Assembly: GCA_913775315.1 (NCBI GenBank)
Contig: CAJYIX010000010.1
Location: 144,036-208,035, forward strand
Length of the DNA: 64,000 nt
Origin: an uncultured Sphingomonas sp.
GTDB taxonomy: Bacteria; Pseudomonadota; Alphaproteobacteria; Sphingomonadales; Sphingomonadaceae
Reading direction: 5' to 3'
Below are positions 6,863 through 59,306 of the stretch, in pieces. Each line of letters starts with the position of its first letter. The first letter of the stretch is position 1. The translations under genes were made by a program, and so were the position numbers. Below the pieces are notes generated by a model. The model was not told the origin of the DNA. It saw only the letters and a list, made by a program, of their open reading frames with translations, and made no database searches.

Positions 6863-8026
6863 TCAGGCGGCGCGGGCGTGGGCGATGCCGCGTTCGAGCC
6901 CGCGCAGTTCGGCCAGCCCGCGCATCCGCCCGAGCAGCGAATAGCCGGGGAGGGTGCGCTTGGTGAGGTCGTCGAGCATCTGATGGCCGTGGTCGGGTCG
7001 CATCGGGATCGACCGGCCTTCACGGATTTGAAGGTCGTGAACCGCCGCGACGATGCGGGCCATTTCGGCATCGCCCTCGAGATGCGGGGCCTCGTGGAAG
7101 GTGCCGCCATCCTCGCGCTGGACCGAGCGCAGGTGGAGGAAGCCGATGCGGCTGCCCAACCGCTCGACCATGCCGGGCAGGTCGTTGTCGGCGCGCGCGC
7201 CGAACGAGCCGGAGCAGAAGCACAGACCGTTGGCCGCGCTCGGCACCCGGTCGAACAGATACGCCACGTCCGCCTCGGTACTGACGACGCGCGGCAGGCC
7301 GAACAGCGGGAAGGGCGGGTCGTCGGGATGGACGACGAGGCGGATGCCGAGGGACTCGGCATGCGGTGCTACGACGTTCAGGAAGGCGATCAGGTTGGCG
7401 CGCAGGGCATCGGGGCCGAGTTCGCCATAGCGGGCGAGCGCGGCGCGAAAGGCATCGCGGGTGAACCCTTCCTCGCTGCCGGGCAGGCCGGCGATGATCG
7501 TCGCCTCGAGCGCCATGCACGCGGCGTCGCCCATGCCCGCGTGGCGGCGCGCCGCCTTGTCGAGCAGGTCGGGCGCGTAATCCGCCTCCGCCCCCGGCCG
7601 CTTCAGGATGAAGCAGTCATAGGCCGCCGCCATCTCGTGCTCGAAGCGAAGCGCCCTCGCACCATCGGGCAGCTCCCAGGCGAGGTCGGTCCGCGTCCAG
7701 TCGAGCACGGGCATGAAATTGTAGGTGACGACGTCGATACCCGACGCGGCAAGGTTGGTCAGCGTCCGGCAATACGCGTCGAGATAGCGCGCGGAATCGC
7801 CGTTGCCGGTCTTGATATCGTCATGAACGGGCACGCTTTCGACCACGCGCCACTTGAGACCCGCCGCCTCGATCCGGTCCCGGTACGCGGCGATCGTCTC
7901 GGCGGGCCAGACCGCGCCGTTGGGCAGGTCGTGGAGCGCGCTCACCACGTCGGTCGCGCCCGATTGCCTGATTTCCCGAAGCGATACCGGGTCGGATGCC
8001 CCGAACCATCGCATCGCCTGCGTCAT
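6863..8026 (-). CDS. uxuA: Mannonate dehydratase
   Basis: UxuA dehydrates D-mannonate to 2-keto-3-deoxygluconate in glucuronate catabolism, in the cytoplasm. The 387-residue product aligns from its first residues with known UxuA (MTQAMRWFGASDPVSL, then IRQSGATDVVSALHDLP), and shows metal-site segments VVHPDDPPFP, CFCSGSFGA and RPDHGH. I choose ATG 8026 for that alignment; in-frame GTG codons at 8032 and 8038 are nearer-spaced to a GGGGA box and could be used instead. It heads a uxuA-MFS transporter operon divergent from a third Gfo/Idh/MocA oxidoreductase. Neither uxaC nor a fructuronate reductase is in the window. Confidence 0.93.
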   Translation of the reverse strand: MTQAMRWFGASDPVSLREIRQSGATDVVSALHDLPNGAVWPAETIAAYRDRIEAAGLKWRVVESVPVHDDIKTGNGDSARYLDAYCRTLTNLAASGIDVVTYNFMPVLDWTRTDLAWELPDGARALRFEHEMAAAYDCFILKRPGAEADYAPDLLDKAARRHAGMGDAACMALEATIIAGLPGSEEGFTRDAFRAALARYGELGPDALRANLIAFLNVVAPHAESLGIRLVVHPDDPPFPLFGLPRVVSTEADVAYLFDRVPSAANGLCFCSGSFGARADNDLPGMVERLGSRIGFLHLRSVQREDGGTFHEAPHLEGDAEMARIVAAVHDLQIREGRSIPMRPDHGHQMLDDLTKRTLPGYSLLGRMRGLAELRGLERGIAHARAA

Positions 8027-16216: not shown

Positions 16217-16281
16217 GCCGCAGCCGCCCCGTTGAACTCCCCAATTCCCGCGGATAAGGGCGGCAAAAAAAGGGGGGGGTC

Positions 16282-16821
16282 ATGACAAATGCAACCATGC
16301 CGCTCGCGAGCCTGCGCGAGCAGTTCCGCGCCACGTCGACCGCATCGATGCCGCTGGCGGGGATGATCCTGTGGACGATCGCGGCAGTCGGGTCGGCCAT
16401 CGTGTCGCCGAAGACGTTAGGGTTCGCGGTTGCGTTCGGCAGCGGGCTGATCTTCCCGCTCGCGCTGCTGATCGACCGGCTGCGTGGGCGACAGCTCATG
16501 AAGAGCGGCGCGGGCAACCCGGTGCTCGCCAATTTCATGGGCGGCATCGTCATGGTCGGGCTGCTCTGGCCGCTGGTCATCATCGCCGGCCTGAACAATC
16601 CCGGCATCATCGTGCTGGGCGCCGCGATCCTCTTGGCGCTCGTTTGGATCCCGTTTGGCTGGTCGGCGGATGATCCAGTGGGAATGCAGCACGCGATCGG
16701 GCGCTGCGTCGCGGCCTACGCCGCCTATCTGTTCGTGCCGCGGCCGTGGCATCTGACGGCGATATGCATCGTCGTGGTCGCGGCGTATCTCTTCTCCTTC
16801 GCGCGGATGCGCCGCGACTGA
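16282..16821 (+). CDS. Multi-TM membrane protein of unknown function (DUF7010-like)
   Basis: The 179-residue product has about six hydrophobic segments (around residues 25-40, 47-63, 86-103, 107-123, 138-152, 158-174) and a basic tail. It looks like a small conserved membrane protein family (DUF7010); no catalytic motif is seen. Its start is preceded by a run of eight G (16272-16279), a very strong ribosome binding site. It interrupts the otherwise conserved nagZ-scpA order, so it may be a recent insertion. Confidence 0.65.
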   Translation: MTNATMPLASLREQFRATSTASMPLAGMILWTIAAVGSAIVSPKTLGFAVAFGSGLIFPLALLIDRLRGRQLMKSGAGNPVLANFMGGIVMVGLLWPLVIIAGLNNPGIIVLGAAILLALVWIPFGWSADDPVGMQHAIGRCVAAYAAYLFVPRPWHLTAICIVVVAAYLFSFARMRRD

Positions 16822-18468: not shown

Positions 18469-18888
18469 ATGCTCGACTTCAACATGAGCGAGATGATGGT
18501 GGTCGCCATCGTCGCGCTACTCGTCATCGGCCCCAAGGACCTGCCCAAGGCGATGCGCTTCGTCGGCTATTGGGTCGGCCGCGCGCGCGGTGTGGCGCGC
18601 CAGTTCCGTTCGGGCTTCGATGCGATGGTGCGCGAGGCCGAGCTCGCCGAAATGGAAAAGAAATGGGCGGACGAGAACGCGCGGATCATGCGCGAACACC
18701 CGCCGGAGCCCGCCGCGCAGCCCGTCGCGCTCGAGGGGCCGCCGGCTCCCGATGATGCGCACGCCGCTGCCGGCGGCGCCACGCCCATGCCGGAGGGCGA
18801 CCACGGTCCTGCATCGACGCCCCAGCCGGTGATCCGCGACGAGCCCGCAGCCACGCCGGTCGATCCGGCGCAGAAGGGCCAGCCGTGA
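18469..18888 (+). CDS. tatB: Sec-independent translocase subunit TatB
   Basis: TatB, with TatC, forms the receptor for twin-arginine signal peptides. The 139-residue product begins MLDFNMSEMMVVAIVALLVIGPKDLPKAM, a TM helix with the typical Glu-8 region and GPKDLP hinge, then an amphipathic helix and a Pro/Ala-rich tail. Its stop overlaps the tatC GTG start by 4 bp. Confidence 0.93.
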   Translation: MLDFNMSEMMVVAIVALLVIGPKDLPKAMRFVGYWVGRARGVARQFRSGFDAMVREAELAEMEKKWADENARIMREHPPEPAAQPVALEGPPAPDDAHAAAGGATPMPEGDHGPASTPQPVIRDEPAATPVDPAQKGQP

Positions 18889-19652
18889 GGGACATCGACG
18901 ACACGCAGGCCCCGCTGCTCGAACACCTGATCGAGCTGCGTCGCCGTCTGTTCTACTGCCTGCTGACGATCCTCGTTGCGTTCGGCGTCTGCTATTATTT
19001 CGCCGAGGACGTGTTCTCGTTTCTCGTGCAACCGCTGCTGGCCGCGGGGCAGAAGAAGGTGATCTTCACCCAGCTGTTCGAGGCGTTCTTCGTCCGGGTG
19101 AAGGTCGCGTTCTTTGCGGCGATGATGATCTCCTTCCCCGTGCTCGCCAACCAGTTGTGGCAGTTCGTGGCGCCGGGCCTTTACCGCAGCGAGAAGAAGG
19201 CGCTGTTGCCGTTCCTGCTGGCGACGCCGATCCTGTTCACGATGGGGGCGGCGCTTGCCTATTTCGTGACGATCCCGGTGGCGTTACACTTCCTGCTTGG
19301 CTTCCAGGGCAATTTCGGCGGCATCCAGCAGGAGGCGTTGCCCTCGGTCGGCAATTACCTGTCGTTCGTGATGCAGTTCCTGTTTGCGTTCGGCATCGCG
19401 TTCCTGCTGCCGATCCTGCTGATGCTGTTGGAGCGCGCGGGCATCGTGACGCGCAAGCAGCTTGTGAGTGCGCGGCGCTACGCGATCGTTGCCGCGTTCG
19501 GCCTCGCCGCGGTGCTGACGCCGCCCGATATTGGCTCGCAGTTCCTGTTGGCGATCCCGCTGATCTTTCTCTATGAGGTCGCGCTGATCGGCATCTGGTT
19601 CACCGAGCGTAAGCGCGCCAGGACCGCCGCGGTCGAGGAAGAGCCCGCCTGA
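18885..19652 (+). CDS. tatC: Sec-independent translocase subunit TatC
   Basis: TatC is the six-TM core of the Tat receptor. The 255-residue product starts with GTG 18885 (MRDIDDTQAPLLEHLIELRRR), containing the conserved HLxELRxR segment, and has the later FExFFVRVKVAFF motif region and six hydrophobic helices. A bidirectional terminator follows directly. Confidence 0.95.
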   Translation: MRDIDDTQAPLLEHLIELRRRLFYCLLTILVAFGVCYYFAEDVFSFLVQPLLAAGQKKVIFTQLFEAFFVRVKVAFFAAMMISFPVLANQLWQFVAPGLYRSEKKALLPFLLATPILFTMGAALAYFVTIPVALHFLLGFQGNFGGIQQEALPSVGNYLSFVMQFLFAFGIAFLLPILLMLLERAGIVTRKQLVSARRYAIVAAFGLAAVLTPPDIGSQFLLAIPLIFLYEVALIGIWFTERKRARTAAVEEEPA

Positions 19653-19656
19653 CAAG

Positions 19657-19694
19657 AAAAGGCCGCGTTCCCGATCGGGAACGCGGCCTTTTTT
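19657..19694. terminator. Bidirectional Rho-independent terminator
   Basis: AAAAGGCCGCGTTCCC and GGGAACGCGGCCTTTT form a perfect 16-bp stem with loop GATC, flanked by A- and T-runs. It serves tatC on the plus strand and the convergent entericidin gene on the minus strand. Confidence 0.9.
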
Positions 19695-19712
19695 CAGCCT
19701 TGCGGCCGGGGC

Positions 19713-19838
19713 TTAGTTCGCGGCCTTCTCGACCGCGGTGCCCGCCGACTTCACGTCCTTGCCGACGCCCTCGACGGTGTTGCACGCGCTGGTCAGCAGC
19801 GCACCCGCGACCACGGCCAGACCCAGAATCTTACGCAT
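19713..19838 (-). CDS. Entericidin A/B-family small lipoprotein
   Basis: A 41-residue product read from ATG 19838: basic start, hydrophobic helix, lipobox TSAC with Cys19, then NTVEGVGKDVKSAGTAVEKAAN, the characteristic entericidin sequence. GGAG lies 6 nt before ATG 19838, whereas it abuts the alternative ATG 19844. Entericidins are stress-induced outer-membrane or periplasmic lipoproteins linked in E. coli to a toxin/antidote lysis module. An EcfG-like promoter (19871-19895) lies 33 bp upstream, and the gene is next to the general stress response locus, so stress control is likely. No second entericidin copy is seen. Confidence 0.88.
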   Translation of the reverse strand: MRKILGLAVVAGALLTSACNTVEGVGKDVKSAGTAVEKAAN

Positions 19839-19870: not shown

Positions 19871-19895
19871 AATGCCGCTCGTCGATATTCGTTCC
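19871..19895 (-). promoter_or_regulatory. EcfG-type promoter of the entericidin gene
   Basis: On the minus strand GGAAC (19895-19891), a 16-nt spacer and CATT (19874-19871) match the alphaproteobacterial EcfG consensus GGAAC-N16-CGTT with one change. The expected start site near 19862 leaves a leader of about 24 nt before the entericidin ATG. Confidence 0.6.
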
Positions 19896-19929: not shown

Positions 19930-20039
19930 GTTGGAAGGGGTAAGGCCCGAAAGCGTCGCCGGGGGGGGGGGAGGGTCGACGCTTCCGGGCCTCATGTCGT
20001 GGACGGTGAGAGCGGGGGGGCAAAAGGTCACCGTCCGGG
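19930..20039 (-). ncRNA. Candidate EcfG-controlled small RNA with two C-rich hairpin loops (GsrN-like)
   Basis: Downstream of a perfect EcfG promoter, the minus strand can fold into two stem-loops. Hairpin A (20036-20001) has a 9-bp stem and an 18-nt loop with seven C. Hairpin B (19992-19943) has a 16-bp stem and an 18-nt loop with eleven consecutive C. In hairpin B the single imperfect pair is G-U on the minus strand but A-C on the plus strand, which favours minus-strand transcription. Caulobacter GsrN is a general-stress small RNA with an exposed C-rich loop transcribed by the same sigma factor. No reading frame of interest lies here. The 3' end is unclear; no T-run follows hairpin B, so the transcript might run into the entericidin gene. 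Confidence 0.6.
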
Positions 20040-20045
20040 TTGCTG

Positions 20046-20070
20046 AACGTGCGTCCCAGCGGGGGGTTCC
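20046..20070 (-). promoter_or_regulatory. EcfG-type promoter, exact consensus
   Basis: On the minus strand GGAAC (20070-20066), 16 nt, then CGTT (20049-20046) is an exact match to the EcfG/sigma-T promoter. The predicted start near 20037-20040 coincides with the first base pairs of hairpin A of the candidate small RNA. Confidence 0.75.
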
Positions 20071-20099
20071 GACGCCGCCCGCACACTCACGATTTTTTT

Positions 20100-21704
20100 T
20101 CAGGGACGGCCCATCACCGCGACGTTGATCTCGTAGGCGCCGCTCAGCGGGTCGTGATGGAGCGGCGCGCGAAGCTGGCGCGCAAGGCCGGCGATCACCC
20201 GGCCGTAACGCCCGGCGAGCAGCGCATCGAGCCCGTCGCCCTGGATCAGCGCGGGCGAGACGACGCGAAGGACGCCGATCCCAGGCTGGTCGGCGGGCTG
20301 GCGCAGCGAGATGCGCGCCTGCGTCTCCGGATTCGCGGTCATCGCCAGTTCGAGCAGCTCTGTGACGAGGAAGGCGACGGCGATCGCGGTATCCTGCGAC
20401 ACCATCACCGGCTCGACCTCGATCGCGACGGCGAAGCGGTGCGCTCCCTCCGGCGCGCCGGCGCGGATGCCCGCGGCCAGCTCGCCGATCACCGCACGCA
20501 TCTCGACCCCGCGATTCTCCTCGAGCTCGGCGAAGTGATAGCGGTGGACGACCGCGAGCGCGTCGACGCGCCGCTGGATCGAGGCATAGGCAGCAGCCGC
20601 CTCGGGCGTGGCGGCGCCGCGCGCGTGGAAGTTGATGAGGCTGGCGATGACCTGAAGGTTGTTCTTGACCCGGTGGTGAACCTCGCGCGTCAGCTTGGTC
20701 TGGCGCACCAGACCCTCGGCGAGCCCCGCCTCGTGCGCGACGACGGTGTGGGTAATCGCGCGGAAGGTGTCGCCAAGTTGGCGGATCTCCTGCGCCGGCA
20801 CCGCGCCATAGTCGACGGGGCCGAGCACCGTGCCCGGCGCATACGCGCCGACGCTGGCGCGCAGGCGGCGGAGCGGCCGGATCAGCAGGCGGTCGACGAC
20901 GAACCACGCGATGGCGGCGGCGCCGATCCACATCAGGAACGGGATCAGCATCGCGACGAGCAAAGGCGAGGTGATCGGCGCGCCGCGCATCGCCATCTCG
21001 ACGACCAGGCCGTCGATGCCGATCGGCGTCGCCGCGCTTTCGGTCCGCGCGAACGGGCCGGCATCGGGCAGGTCGGCCAGCGTCAGCGAGGCGTCGTCGT
21101 CGCGCAGCGCGATGCCCTTATCGGCGAGAAGGCCGCTCGGCTGCGCGATCGGGCCGAGGAAGCCGGCGGGAAAGAAGGCGGTGCCGACGACGCCCGAGCG
21201 CGGATCGGCAACGGCGAGGACGACGCCATCGGCGACGACCCGCGCGGCGATCCGGCCGGCATCCAGCCGTTCGCCGGCGATGGCGCGGTCGGCGGGCAGT
21301 GCCTCGCCGCAGAGGAGCCGGCCGGCCCGGTCGCGGATCGCGAAGCGGAGGCCCGCGGCATATTGCTGCGCAAAGATGCCGCGGGCGCGGGCGCAGGTCG
21401 CGTCGTTGCCCGGGTCGGCCGCGAGCGCGACGACGCTGGTGCGCAGCGCCGCCATGTCGCCCAGGAGTTCGGCGCCGATCGAGCGATTGCTCTCGGCCAG
21501 CGCCACGCGGAGCTGCGCGCGCACCTCCACATCGGCGATGCGTGTCGTCTGAACCGTGGCGAGGAAGGCGAGCAGCGCCAGCGGCAGCAACGCACCACCG
21601 AGAATCAGGAAGACGCGCGCGCCGGTCGGGAGCCCGGACAGCCAGCGGCGCGGTTCGACCTCGGGCGGCAGGTCCGGTTCGGATGCGGTATCGGGCGCGG
21701 TCAT
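20100..21704 (-). CDS. phyP: Sensor histidine kinase of the HRXXN type in the general stress locus, with degenerate ATPase domain (PhyP-like)
   Basis: The 534-residue membrane protein has TM1 near residues 30-50, an extracytoplasmic sensor region, TM2 near 248-272, a HAMP-like linker, and a HisKA_2 domain with EVHHRVKNNLQVIASL (about residue 340). The C-terminal ATPase lacks recognisable N and G boxes: where NELVTNALKHA-like sequence is expected it reads TELLELAMTANP. In Sphingomonas Fr1 the kinase-like protein encoded beside nepR (PhyP) acts as a negative regulator, probably a PhyR phosphatase; position, dimerisation motif and degenerate ATPase fit that. The gene lies 87 bp downstream of nepR, likely co-transcribed. 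Confidence 0.82.
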   Translation of the reverse strand: MTAPDTASEPDLPPEVEPRRWLSGLPTGARVFLILGGALLPLALLAFLATVQTTRIADVEVRAQLRVALAESNRSIGAELLGDMAALRTSVVALAADPGNDATCARARGIFAQQYAAGLRFAIRDRAGRLLCGEALPADRAIAGERLDAGRIAARVVADGVVLAVADPRSGVVGTAFFPAGFLGPIAQPSGLLADKGIALRDDDASLTLADLPDAGPFARTESAATPIGIDGLVVEMAMRGAPITSPLLVAMLIPFLMWIGAAAIAWFVVDRLLIRPLRRLRASVGAYAPGTVLGPVDYGAVPAQEIRQLGDTFRAITHTVVAHEAGLAEGLVRQTKLTREVHHRVKNNLQVIASLINFHARGAATPEAAAAYASIQRRVDALAVVHRYHFAELEENRGVEMRAVIGELAAGIRAGAPEGAHRFAVAIEVEPVMVSQDTAIAVAFLVTELLELAMTANPETQARISLRQPADQPGIGVLRVVSPALIQGDGLDALLAGRYGRVIAGLARQLRAPLHHDPLSGAYEINVAVMGRP

Positions 21705-21791: not shown

Positions 21792-21998
21792 TCAATCGAG
21801 CTTCTTGAGCAGGTCGAGCAGGTCGTCCGGCACCGTCTCCTCCACCGCTTCGCGATAGACGGCGCGCAGCGCATCGCCGACATTCTTGTTCGCGGGCGCT
21901 GGCGGGGTCCTTGGCGGCTTCGGCGGCTGATTGTCAGAACCCACGACTTCCCCCTGCAGCCCGCCATCCCCCGGTTTTTCGGACGACGGGTACGACAC
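21792..21998 (-). CDS. nepR: Anti-sigma factor NepR
   Basis: NepR sequesters EcfG until phosphorylated PhyR binds it. The 68-residue frame from GTG 21998 ends in the diagnostic NVGDALRAVYREAVEETVP followed by DDLLDLLKKLD, with a Pro-rich N-terminal tail. GTG 21944, preceded by a GGGGGA box, is an alternative start giving 50 residues. An EcfG-type promoter (22062-22087) reads into it, giving the usual negative feedback. It is divergent from phyR. Confidence 0.93.
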   Translation of the reverse strand: MSYPSSEKPGDGGLQGEVVGSDNQPPKPPRTPPAPANKNVGDALRAVYREAVEETVPDDLLDLLKKLD

Positions 21999-22061
21999 TG
22001 TTCGGCGAGGCCCTTTGCAGCGCTTCGCTTCGCGCGCAACCTATGCGCGTTCGGTGCGATG

Positions 22062-22087
22062 AAACTAAAAAGACGTTCGATGGTTCC
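22062..22087 (-). promoter_or_regulatory. EcfG-type promoter of nepR
   Basis: GGAAC (22087-22083 on the minus strand) is followed after 17 nt by GTTT (equivalently GGAAC-N16-AGTT), one change from consensus. The predicted start near 22053 leaves about 55 nt before GTG 21998. Confidence 0.65.
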
Positions 22088-22194
22088 GTGGCTTGTGGCT
22101 TTTCCGGGGAGGGGGGGATTTTGCCCGTCCGCGGCCTCACCACATCTGATTGGCCCGCCCGCCCCGGCGGACGGTGGAGGAGACTAGAATTACC

Positions 22195-22998
22195 ATGTCG
22201 CTTGGACAGCAGCTTGCCCCGCATCTTCCGTTTCTTCGCCGCTATGGCCGGGCACTGACCGGCAGCCAGGCCGAGGGGGACCGCTATGTCCGCGCGACGC
22301 TCGAGGCGATCGTCGCGGCGCCGGAGGAGTTTCCGCGCGACGTCGATCCGCGCCTCGGCCTCTATCGCACGTTCCAGGCGATCTGGGGATCGAGCCAGAT
22401 CGACGACCATGAGGCCGATCATGCCGGCGGCAGCGATCAGGAAGCGATCGCGCGCGCCCGCCTTGCCCGCATCGCGCCCTTGTCGCGTCAGGCGCTGCTG
22501 CTGACCGCGATGGAGGGGTTCACGGTCGAGGATACGGCCTATCTGATCGACGTCGACACAGCCGAGGTCGACGCGCTGGTCGCCGACGCGCTGGCCGAGA
22601 TCGAGCAGCAGACGCGCGCCCGCGTGCTGGTGATCGAGGACGAGCCGATCATCGCCATGGACCTCGAGACGATCGTCCGCGACCTGGGCCACGAAGTGAC
22701 CGGCGTCGCCGTGACCCGCGACGAGGCGGTGGCACTGGCGATGGAGGATCGCCCCGGCCTCGTCCTCGCCGACATCCAGCTGGCCGACGACAGTTCGGGT
22801 ATCGATGCGGTCAAGGACATTCTGGCGCAGTTCAACGTGCCGGTGATCTTCATCACCGCCTTCCCCGAGCGGCTGCTGACGGGCGAGCGACCCGAGCCTA
22901 CCTTCCTCATCACCAAGCCGTTCCAGCGGTCGACGGTGAAGGCGGCGATCAGCCAGGCGCTGTTCTTCGACCAATCGACGGTCCCGGCCGGCGCGTAA
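22195..22998 (+). CDS. phyR: Response regulator PhyR (sigma-factor-mimic anti-anti-sigma)
   Basis: PhyR, when phosphorylated, exposes a sigma-like domain that titrates NepR away from EcfG. The 267-residue product from ATG 22195 has an ECF sigma2/sigma4-like domain (residues about 8-125) and a receiver domain (about 142-260) with the acidic pair E148/D149, phosphoacceptor D193 (LADIQLAD) and the Lys in ITKPF. GGAGGAG is slightly far from the ATG (about 11 nt). It is divergent from nepR and upstream of a small membrane peptide and ecfG. Confidence 0.96.
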   Translation: MSLGQQLAPHLPFLRRYGRALTGSQAEGDRYVRATLEAIVAAPEEFPRDVDPRLGLYRTFQAIWGSSQIDDHEADHAGGSDQEAIARARLARIAPLSRQALLLTAMEGFTVEDTAYLIDVDTAEVDALVADALAEIEQQTRARVLVIEDEPIIAMDLETIVRDLGHEVTGVAVTRDEAVALAMEDRPGLVLADIQLADDSSGIDAVKDILAQFNVPVIFITAFPERLLTGERPEPTFLITKPFQRSTVKAAISQALFFDQSTVPAGA

Positions 22999-23054
22999 AG
23001 CGCTTCGGGTCAAAAGGATACGGAGCCAAAACGAACTTGGGGGGTTGAAGCGAC

Positions 23055-23192
23055 ATGGCTGATCCGAACGAACAGGTTCATATCGACACCGACCGCGCTC
23101 GCGCCGGTGCGACCCCCCATATGACGCGCTACATCCTGCCGATTTCGCTCGCGCTGGTGATCGCGATCTTTGCGTATCTCGTCCTGGCCTGA
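23055..23192 (+). CDS. 45-residue single-TM peptide between phyR and ecfG
   Basis: ATG 23055 opens a 45-residue frame: a polar N-terminal part (MADPNEQVHIDTDRARAGAT) and one C-terminal TM helix (RYILPISLALVIAIFAYLVLA). It lies 56 bp after phyR and about 107 bp before the ecfG start on the same strand. Codon use is normal for the genome, supporting that it is expressed. I do not recognise its function; a membrane-bound modulator of the stress pathway is only a guess from position. Confidence 0.65.
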   Translation: MADPNEQVHIDTDRARAGATPHMTRYILPISLALVIAIFAYLVLA

Positions 23193-23299
23193 CCCGATTG
23201 TCCGCTTCCGATGATGCGGCGGGGATGGTCATTCCCGCCCCCACCCCTTATGTTCCAGACCGTGGCCGCGTACCGCAGGGCCCATCCGATCGGAGCTGC

Positions 23300-23944
23300 A
23301 TGTCCCAGTCTGACGAACAACAGCCGGGCGGCGAAATGCCCGAGCGCGAGCATGTCTCGCTCTCGGATCCCGAGTTCAAGGCACAGCTCACGCAGGTCAT
23401 TCCGCACCTTCGCGCGTTCGGCCGCTCGCTGTCGGGCAGCCGCGATACCGCCGACGATCTGGTGCAGGAGACGCTGTTGAAAGCGTGGGCCGCGCGCAAG
23501 CGGTTCCAGGCGGGCACGAACATGCGCGCCTGGACCTTCATTATCCTGCGCAACCTCTATCTCAGCCAGATGCGCCGCGCGCGTTTCAAGGGCGAGTGGG
23601 ACGATCTGGTCGCCGATCGGCTGCTCGCCGCGCCGGCCAGCCAGGATCGCCATGTGGAGCTGACCGACATGCAGCGTGCGCTGCTCCACCTGCCGCGGCC
23701 GCAGCGTGAGGCGCTGATCCTCGTCGGGGCGGGCGGGTTCGCTTATGAAGAGGCGGCCGAAATCTGTCAGGTCGCGGTCGGGACGATCAAGAGCCGGGTG
23801 GCCCGGGGCCGCGTCGCGCTCGAGAATCTGTTGACCGACGGTGCGCTGCCCAGCCGCGCGCTGCACGATCATGGCGACAAGAGCGCGCTCGACACGATCA
23901 TGGGCGAGGTCGACGAACTCAGCCGGGACCGCGGTCTGCACTGA
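23300..23944 (+). CDS. ecfG: General stress ECF sigma factor EcfG
   Basis: EcfG (group ECF15) directs RNA polymerase to GGAAC-N16-CGTT promoters. The frame is open from 23198, but ATG 23300 (MSQSDEQQPGGEMPE), with GGAG 4 nt upstream, gives the normal 214 residues. Region 2 is at about residues 30-95 (DDLVQETLLKAWAARKRF, NMRAWTFIILRN) and region 4 at about 130-185 (LPRPQREALILVGAGGFAYEEAAE, GTIKSRVARGR). A hairpin terminator follows, and a NepR-like frame is convergent. Confidence 0.95.
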   Translation: MSQSDEQQPGGEMPEREHVSLSDPEFKAQLTQVIPHLRAFGRSLSGSRDTADDLVQETLLKAWAARKRFQAGTNMRAWTFIILRNLYLSQMRRARFKGEWDDLVADRLLAAPASQDRHVELTDMQRALLHLPRPQREALILVGAGGFAYEEAAEICQVAVGTIKSRVARGRVALENLLTDGALPSRALHDHGDKSALDTIMGEVDELSRDRGLH

Positions 23945-59208: not shown

Positions 59209-59306
59209 TCGTCCGAACGGGTCACTTTTCAAGCGGCACCGCGCGGATATAGTCCGACTTGTCGATCCGCCGGCACCCAAGCCGGCGACGGCGGGGGGGG
59301 ATGGAC

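Follow-up and report, generated by a model that had tools for sequence, protein, structure and literature searches.

The 6C RNAs are defined by two stem-loops carrying runs of at least six C, and presumably correspond to Rfam accession RF01066. In M. abscessus, B11 carries two C-rich loops and has a target whose leader contains six G's, with repression of this target described as lost only when both loops are mutated, such that either loop suffices (PMC10470900). In Caulobacter crescentus, the ~100 nt GsrN is transcribed by the sigma factor of the general stress response (GSR), and its C-rich 5′ loop pairs with the G-rich leader of katG, a contact for which compensatory mutations are described (PMC5869019). 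As given in the sections of that report covered here, GsrN homologues usually lie near the GSR locus, C. crescentus itself excepted, BLASTN matches of GsrN do not reach beyond the Caulobacteraceae, and no apparent gsrN-like gene is reported for Erythrobacter litoralis, which belongs to the Sphingomonadales; the main text holds no word starting with "sphingo". Further traits of GsrN are a stable 5′ isoform and an Hfq effect.

The stretch of DNA analysed here (the window, 64,000 nt) carries a GSR locus, of which the following genes and signals bear on the sRNA described below:

18885..19652, plus strand: tatC, convergent to the sRNA (Pfam TatC, E 6e-72)
19713..19838, minus strand: entericidin-like small lipoprotein gene, just downstream of the sRNA (translation; Pfam Entericidin PF08085, E 6e-8)
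19871..19895, minus strand: second EcfG-like promoter, GGAAC-N17-ATT, presumably that of the entericidin gene (sequence)
20100..21704, minus strand: GSR-locus histidine kinase of HisKA_2/HWE type, next to the sRNA on its upstream side (Pfam)
21792..21998, minus strand: nepR, anti-sigma factor (Pfam NepR, E 3e-10)
22195..22998, plus strand: phyR, regulator of the general stress response (Pfam PhyR_sigma2, PhyR_sigma-like and Response_reg in a scan begun at 22150; start from the gene caller)
23336..23944, plus strand: gene for an ecfG-type sigma factor, with an uncertain start taken from a simple gene caller (Pfam Sigma70_r2 and Sigma70_r4_2 in a scan begun at 23198)

Beside this locus, the minus strand carries a predicted sRNA gene of ~105 nt which, judged from its sequence, is a member of a conserved family absent from Rfam and undescribed. 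An Rfam scan of the whole window returned one tRNA only, with the sRNA unmatched at gathering score, and the original prediction of an unlisted small RNA with two conserved C-rich loops beside the general stress locus is supported by the comparisons that follow. Among the papers listed for sphingomonad or EcfG-linked sRNAs, including few subscription papers, no title or abstract opening describes the sRNA; the part of PMC8103513 covered holds nothing on an sRNA of Sphingomonas, and the main text of PMC6599016 makes no small RNA, non-coding or intergenic mention. Elsewhere in the locus, a reverse-strand GGAACC...GTTTC motif at 22060-22100, upstream of the divergent nepR, is visible in many of the phyR leaders listed and is likely an EcfG promoter for nepR.

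The sRNA itself comprises the following elements:

20046..20070, minus strand: EcfG-type promoter, GGAAC-N16-CGTT (exact match; family alignment)
20036..20041, minus strand: predicted transcription start, near 20038 (from the conserved promoter)
20001..20036, minus strand: hairpin 1, 9-bp stem (fold; 9/9 pairs covary)
20010..20027, minus strand: C-rich loop 1 (CCUUUUGCCCCCCCGCUC), 18 nt with C7, proposed main seed (C run in alignment)
19942..19993, minus strand: hairpin 2, putative terminator stem-loop, 16-bp core stem (16/16 pairs covary)
19959..19976, minus strand: C-rich loop 2 (ACCCUCCCCCCCCCCCGG), 18 nt with C11, possible second seed (sequence)
19933..19943, minus strand: pyrimidine-rich tail (UUACCCCUUCC), weak in the source species and T-rich in the family (sequence)

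The exact GGAAC-N16-CGTT promoter claimed for the minus strand is present and is the sole exact match in the window at a spacing of 16-17; by itself the motif proves nothing, as 0.66 matches are expected in the window by chance, and it is conservation that raises the finding above this level. Conservation of the motif is near perfect, with GGAAC-N17-GTT at the same position in 35/35 complete host-genus copies, and an EcfG-type promoter upstream of all 99 members of a family-wide alignment (members fitted to the model, 16 of them from the genus set), spaced N17 in 90 and N18 in 9, the latter read by eye. The distance from the GTT end to the model start is 3-7 nt across the 90 N17 members, and 4 nt in 79 of them. 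As originally claimed, stem 2 has a single non-Watson-Crick pair, G-U on the minus strand and A-C on the plus strand; across the 99 members, stem cells read on the minus strand comprise 116 G-U against 20 A-C, which argues that the sRNA lies on the window's minus strand and supports the proposed direction of transcription. RNA folding, a check suggested with the original prediction, gave z = -6.4 for the minus strand and z = -2.8 for the plus strand (200 shuffles).

Both 18-nt loops with C7 and C11 are found in the window as predicted, and the stems that present them are paired in 98.8% (hairpin 1) and 94.3% (hairpin 2) of cells across the 99 members. The longest C run of loop 1 is 6-8 in 94/99 members and at least 6 in 98/99, and the C-tract is followed by GCTC in 89/99, with conservation reaching past the tract on both sides (CCUUUUG or similar before, GCUC after). 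Loop 2 holds an anti-Shine-Dalgarno-like CCUCC, and its longest C run spans 4-14 over the 99 copies (5-14 in 98/99, at least 6 in 91/99). The claim that the loops are C-rich holds family-wide, whilst the C11 length is not conserved, unlike the tract of loop 1. With a C-tract that is nearly fixed and conserved flanks, loop 1 is the likelier main seed, and loop 2, being variable in length, may matter less. After stem 2, the T fraction at alignment columns 4-9 is 0.55-0.84 in the 99 members, and hairpin 2 with its U-rich tail probably forms an intrinsic terminator; the 3′ end of the feature is accordingly placed at the terminator tail near 19933, a correction to the original prediction.

Within the host genus, BLASTN across 61 genomes matched the sRNA in 36, namely its own genome and 35/36 other genomes of the genus, with 0/24 genomes from other families of the order matched. 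The sole genus genome without a match (G007) is an assembly of 610 contigs, estimated as 84% complete, and shows no tatC either, such that the miss is probably an assembly gap. The genus alignment holds 35 copies, the copy of G006 being truncated within hairpin 2 by the end of its contig and left out, and shows compensatory change in 12/25 stem pairs, with 49 cells against 11.6 in shuffles; none of 500 shuffles scored as high, and sliding the partners abolishes pairing. In the family-wide alignment, 25/25 stem pairs covary over 357 cells, again with 0/500 shuffles as high. The genus alignment was not fitted to the structure, whereas the family-wide alignment was, and is biased towards structure to that extent. 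On the conservation check set beforehand, the stems and C tracts are kept in related genomes and the prediction stood. Synteny within the genus is equally tight, with the histidine kinase upstream in 35/35 loci and TatC within 1.5 kb in 33/35.

Beyond the genus, a covariance model built from the 35 genus copies (R1) matched 89/249 host-family genomes, covering 39/96 genera, at E <= 1e-3, and 86/249 at 40 bits or more, with G074, G238 and G129 removed as their matches lay below 37 bits and had no promoter. This family search scored 15 candidates per genome, so R1 misses are no proof of absence. Applied to the order, R1 matched 26/147 genomes, all but one of them in the host family. R1 matches of at least 40 bits with readable upstream sequence carry the promoter, a check made without G082 (contig start) and in which the sequence of L076 is incomplete. 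Five matches below 37 bits, L130-L133 in the host family and L134 in another, have no EcfG promoter, resemble plain terminators and were rejected. A wider model (R2), run on 38 chosen genomes, matched 20 at E <= 0.1, of which seven (G000, G284, G061, G147, G063, G083 and G084) were accepted by promoter or tatC position. With three weak genera removed and three added, the count of family genera with a member is about 39 among the 96 sampled, and over half of the 96 yielded no recognisable one. In the post-tatC region of 25 family genomes with no match or a weak one, 24 lacked GGAAC-N16-18-GTT followed by a C run of at least 5; those 24 regions include three promoter motifs followed by a C4 run and several stray C5-C6 tracts. 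The same region of G063 has a C6 tract and a model match (41 bits) in place. This limited spread within the family agrees with the reported lack of an apparent gsrN-like gene in Erythrobacter litoralis.

The usual setting of the sRNA is between the stress-locus histidine kinase and tatC. Among 51 further loci (L077-L127), TatC lies near in 45; at 16 of these loci no nearby relative of the window's kinase was detected, though a diverged kinase could be missed, and the sRNA is kept, with tatC in 14 of the 16. A strongly diverged member occurs at L471 5001-5102 on the 2.02-Mb, 47% GC chromosome of G084, in full synteny (tatB-tatC, entericidin, RNA, kinase, NepR). This genome appears to resemble Zymomonas, for which Zms8 is described, in the part of the literature covered, as an 80-nt minus-strand sRNA whose overexpression aided growth in ethanol and acetate, and the G084 member may be the counterpart of Zms8 or of another published Zymomonas sRNA. 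Named GTDB genomes, scanned for promoter plus hairpin 1, gave at least 120 stretches; Sphingomonas accounts for most of the 80 matches listed, and the others include Rhizorhabdus, Sphingosinicella, Stakelama, Hephaestia, Pacificimonas, Parasphingopyxis, Sphingorhabdus and unassigned metagenome bins.

Several related RNAs were seen alongside these members. G284 holds a second copy elsewhere (L128/L157), preceded by an EcfG promoter, in which loop 1 is identical (ACCTTTTGCCCCCCCGCTCT) and the terminator hairpin differs; on this evidence the copy is a putative paralogue keeping loop 1. Two-hairpin RNAs with C-rich CTCCC-type loops and no EcfG promoter, L142 in G039 and L143 in G083, may form a separate family of dual C-loop RNAs. 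A look for GsrN-like RNAs close to phyR in 13 genomes from other families gave a single candidate: L468, on the plus strand near 7760 in G385 (another family of the class), with an EcfG promoter, a long hairpin bearing a CCCCAGCCCC loop, and a second hairpin.

That the sRNA is a true GsrN orthologue, diverged past sequence recognition and with a second C-rich loop gained, is conceivable but doubtful. The promoter is of the same kind, the gene sits at the GSR locus, the 5′ hairpin loop is C-rich, and GsrN is of similar length at ~100 nt. However, in the report on GsrN as covered here, matches stop at the Caulobacteraceae and Erythrobacter litoralis goes without an apparent counterpart. R2 turned up nothing convincing in the other families of the class, with three matches among 289 class genomes (which may not include Caulobacteraceae): two from the host genus and G506, without an EcfG promoter. 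Neither G506 (36.5 bits) nor G039/L142, with two C-loop hairpins, was counted as a member, both lacking the promoter. Short C-loop hairpins can, furthermore, arise repeatedly. The katG leaders also speak against orthology: a G run of at least 5 occurs in 2/29 readable leaders (30 loci), and pairing with the sRNA beats shuffles in 10/28, with a mean z of +0.33, such that katG was rejected as a target shared with GsrN. The original description of a sphingomonad counterpart of GsrN is borne out for the promoter, the stress-locus position and the C loops, whilst a counterpart by descent is no more than conceivable. It is nonetheless reasonable to suppose that the sRNA works like GsrN.

We consider it improbable that the C-rich loops bind a protein, in the manner of a sponge, in place of mRNAs. 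The conservation of loop 1 beyond its C-tract exceeds the need of G-tract pairing and would be explained by such binding, however we know of no protein that would fit. Moreover, the two characterised look-alike RNAs, GsrN and B11, act on G-tract leaders as far as their published accounts were covered. That the hairpins are only the terminator or 3′ UTR of the upstream kinase mRNA, or a terminator shared with tatC, is very improbable. Whilst the sRNA follows the kinase closely on the same strand and hairpin 2 is terminator-shaped, the promoter stands directly before the hairpins in 99/99 members, the RNA persists in the 16/51 loci with no kinase relative detected nearby, and a terminator has no need for the sequence of loop 1 to be conserved; a further palindrome, with a T run, comes directly after tatC in the window (19660-19695). 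That the sRNA is a cis-acting leader of the entericidin gene, downstream on the same strand in the window, is scarcely credible, given the terminator shape of hairpin 2, the gene's own EcfG-like promoter at 19871-19895, and a GGAAC-N17-RTT motif within 200 nt downstream of the sRNA in 49/99 aligned members. Both of these last readings are unlikely as the sRNA has its own promoter and entericidin a separate one.

Returning to an sRNA that would act on mRNA leaders, the flagellin leaders are tentatively the best target candidates, with the phyR leader weaker. Flagellin was picked from the 14 G7 leaders of the sRNA's own genome, and then tested elsewhere in the genus. A G run of at least 5 is present in 28/30 flagellin loci, and a C run of at least 5 in 1/30, counting L534, a weak match with a doubtful start, and both L511 and L535, copies in one genome. 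The duplex of the leader with loop 1 of its own genome beats shuffles in 29/29 comparisons (G007 has no RNA), with a mean z of -1.22 compared with +0.10 for antisense, the katG leaders (10/28, mean z +0.33) serving as control, and in the sRNA's own genome CGGGGGGGC of the flagellin leader can form 9 bp with GCCCCCCCG of loop 1. In minimum-energy folds the flagellin G run touches a hairpin loop in 10/29 only and is often partly paired. The tract lies ~40-50 nt before the start and is flanked by GGCTCGGC...CTCCG in many loci (e.g. L506-L533), and it may be kept for another purpose, for example as a site for another regulator. In S. melonis Fr1, as described in the parts of PMC6599016 covered, a stress mix down-regulates the flagellin genes in the wild type and equally in an ecfG deletion, and the authors trace flagellin control to SdrG and its kinases. 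An EcfG-dependent RNA is therefore unnecessary for the fall in flagellin mRNA, and the sRNA would at most act on translation or add to control.

For phyR, the proposed pairing site is:

22106..22117, plus strand: GGGGAGGGGGGG in the phyR leader, speculative target site (sequence; pairing test)

Alone among the eight local leaders tested (169/181 loci taken in), phyR has a mean pairing with both loops better than shuffles, with mean z values of -0.68 and -0.78 (n = 120 loci), compared with +0.45 and +0.79 for antisense; the effect is small and, as the loci are related, a hint only. Runs of G5 or more are found in 47/112 phyR leaders, and of C5 or more in 18. Other G-tracts in the window include a G6 tract immediately ahead of a short open frame, 23055-23192, that lies between phyR and ecfG (window 23039-23192). 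Two genes have their ribosome-binding position occupied by a G8 tract (16272-16281 and 59293-59300). The first of these two genes, at 16282 with the G8 tract at its start, has orthologues in 2/30 other genus genomes only, with G5 (G003) and G6 (G021) near the start, a sample too small for judgement. A search of the sRNA's own genome for the GCGGGGGG-ATG pattern gave 49 matches compared with 16 for the reversed pattern; 30 of the 49 were inspected, yielding no convincing leader set, and the pattern was set aside. Classification of 75 G7 tracts in the same genome placed 25 sense in genes, 23 antisense, 14 sense in leaders and 13 in other intergenic places, two of these 13 being the complement of the sRNA itself; leaders were not clearly richer in such tracts than the other intergenic places.

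We regard it as quite probable that the sRNA is a trans-acting, EcfG-transcribed RNA of ~105 nt, terminated at hairpin 2, with C loops that pair with G-rich mRNA leaders. EcfG would transcribe the RNA from the minus strand, starting near 20038 as the conserved promoter suggests, and transcription would stop at hairpin 2, whose conserved stem and U-rich tail fit an intrinsic terminator. The folded sRNA, a structure backed by covariation, would expose the nearly fixed C-tract of loop 1 and the length-variable C-tract of loop 2. By analogy with GsrN and B11, these loops would pair with G-rich tracts in mRNA 5′ leaders, and the pairing may alter translation or stability of the mRNA during stress. 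Pairing with G-tracts appears the likeliest mechanism because an EcfG-type promoter and two C loops are combined here. A broader proposal, that a family-wide dual C-loop sRNA forms the post-transcriptional arm of the sphingomonad GSR, independent of GsrN and convergent on B11/6C, lowering flagellin translation under stress through pairing of loop 1 with the conserved leader G-tract, atop an EcfG-independent fall in mRNA, is unlikely to hold in full.

A syntenic sRNA with near-perfect promoter conservation would give the sphingomonad stress response a testable post-transcriptional arm; no sphingomonad stress sRNA is named in the surveyed paper titles and abstracts, and Rfam has none here at gathering score. 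The family would also extend C-loop sRNAs with EcfG-type promoters to the Sphingomonadales, whose one genome named in the covered part of PMC5869019 reportedly has no gsrN-like gene. As with GsrN, a GSR sigma factor promoter, identified here by motif, stands directly upstream of the sRNA, and its 5′ hairpin is predicted, with covariation behind it, to expose a C-rich loop; like the GsrN homologues, it adjoins GSR regulatory genes. In contrast to GsrN, the second (terminator) hairpin also carries a C-rich loop, and the katG leaders of the host genus are without a G-tract.

With cmscan run to E 10, the sRNA has no 6C match, the only matches being Scr3202 and Rota_CRE. The best of these sub-threshold matches is Scr3202 of Streptomyces (RF02833; E 0.39 and 21.9 bits, where the gathering score is 52), the two hairpins with C-rich loops aligning over the whole model; with the gathering score not reached, this is a resemblance of layout only. 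By the usual definition of 6C RNA, the C runs of the sRNA are long enough at six or more (98/99 members in loop 1, 91/99 in loop 2). The sRNA shares two C loops with actinobacterial B11 and 6C RNAs but belongs to another phylum, and is a case for asking whether two-C-loop RNAs evolved more than once.
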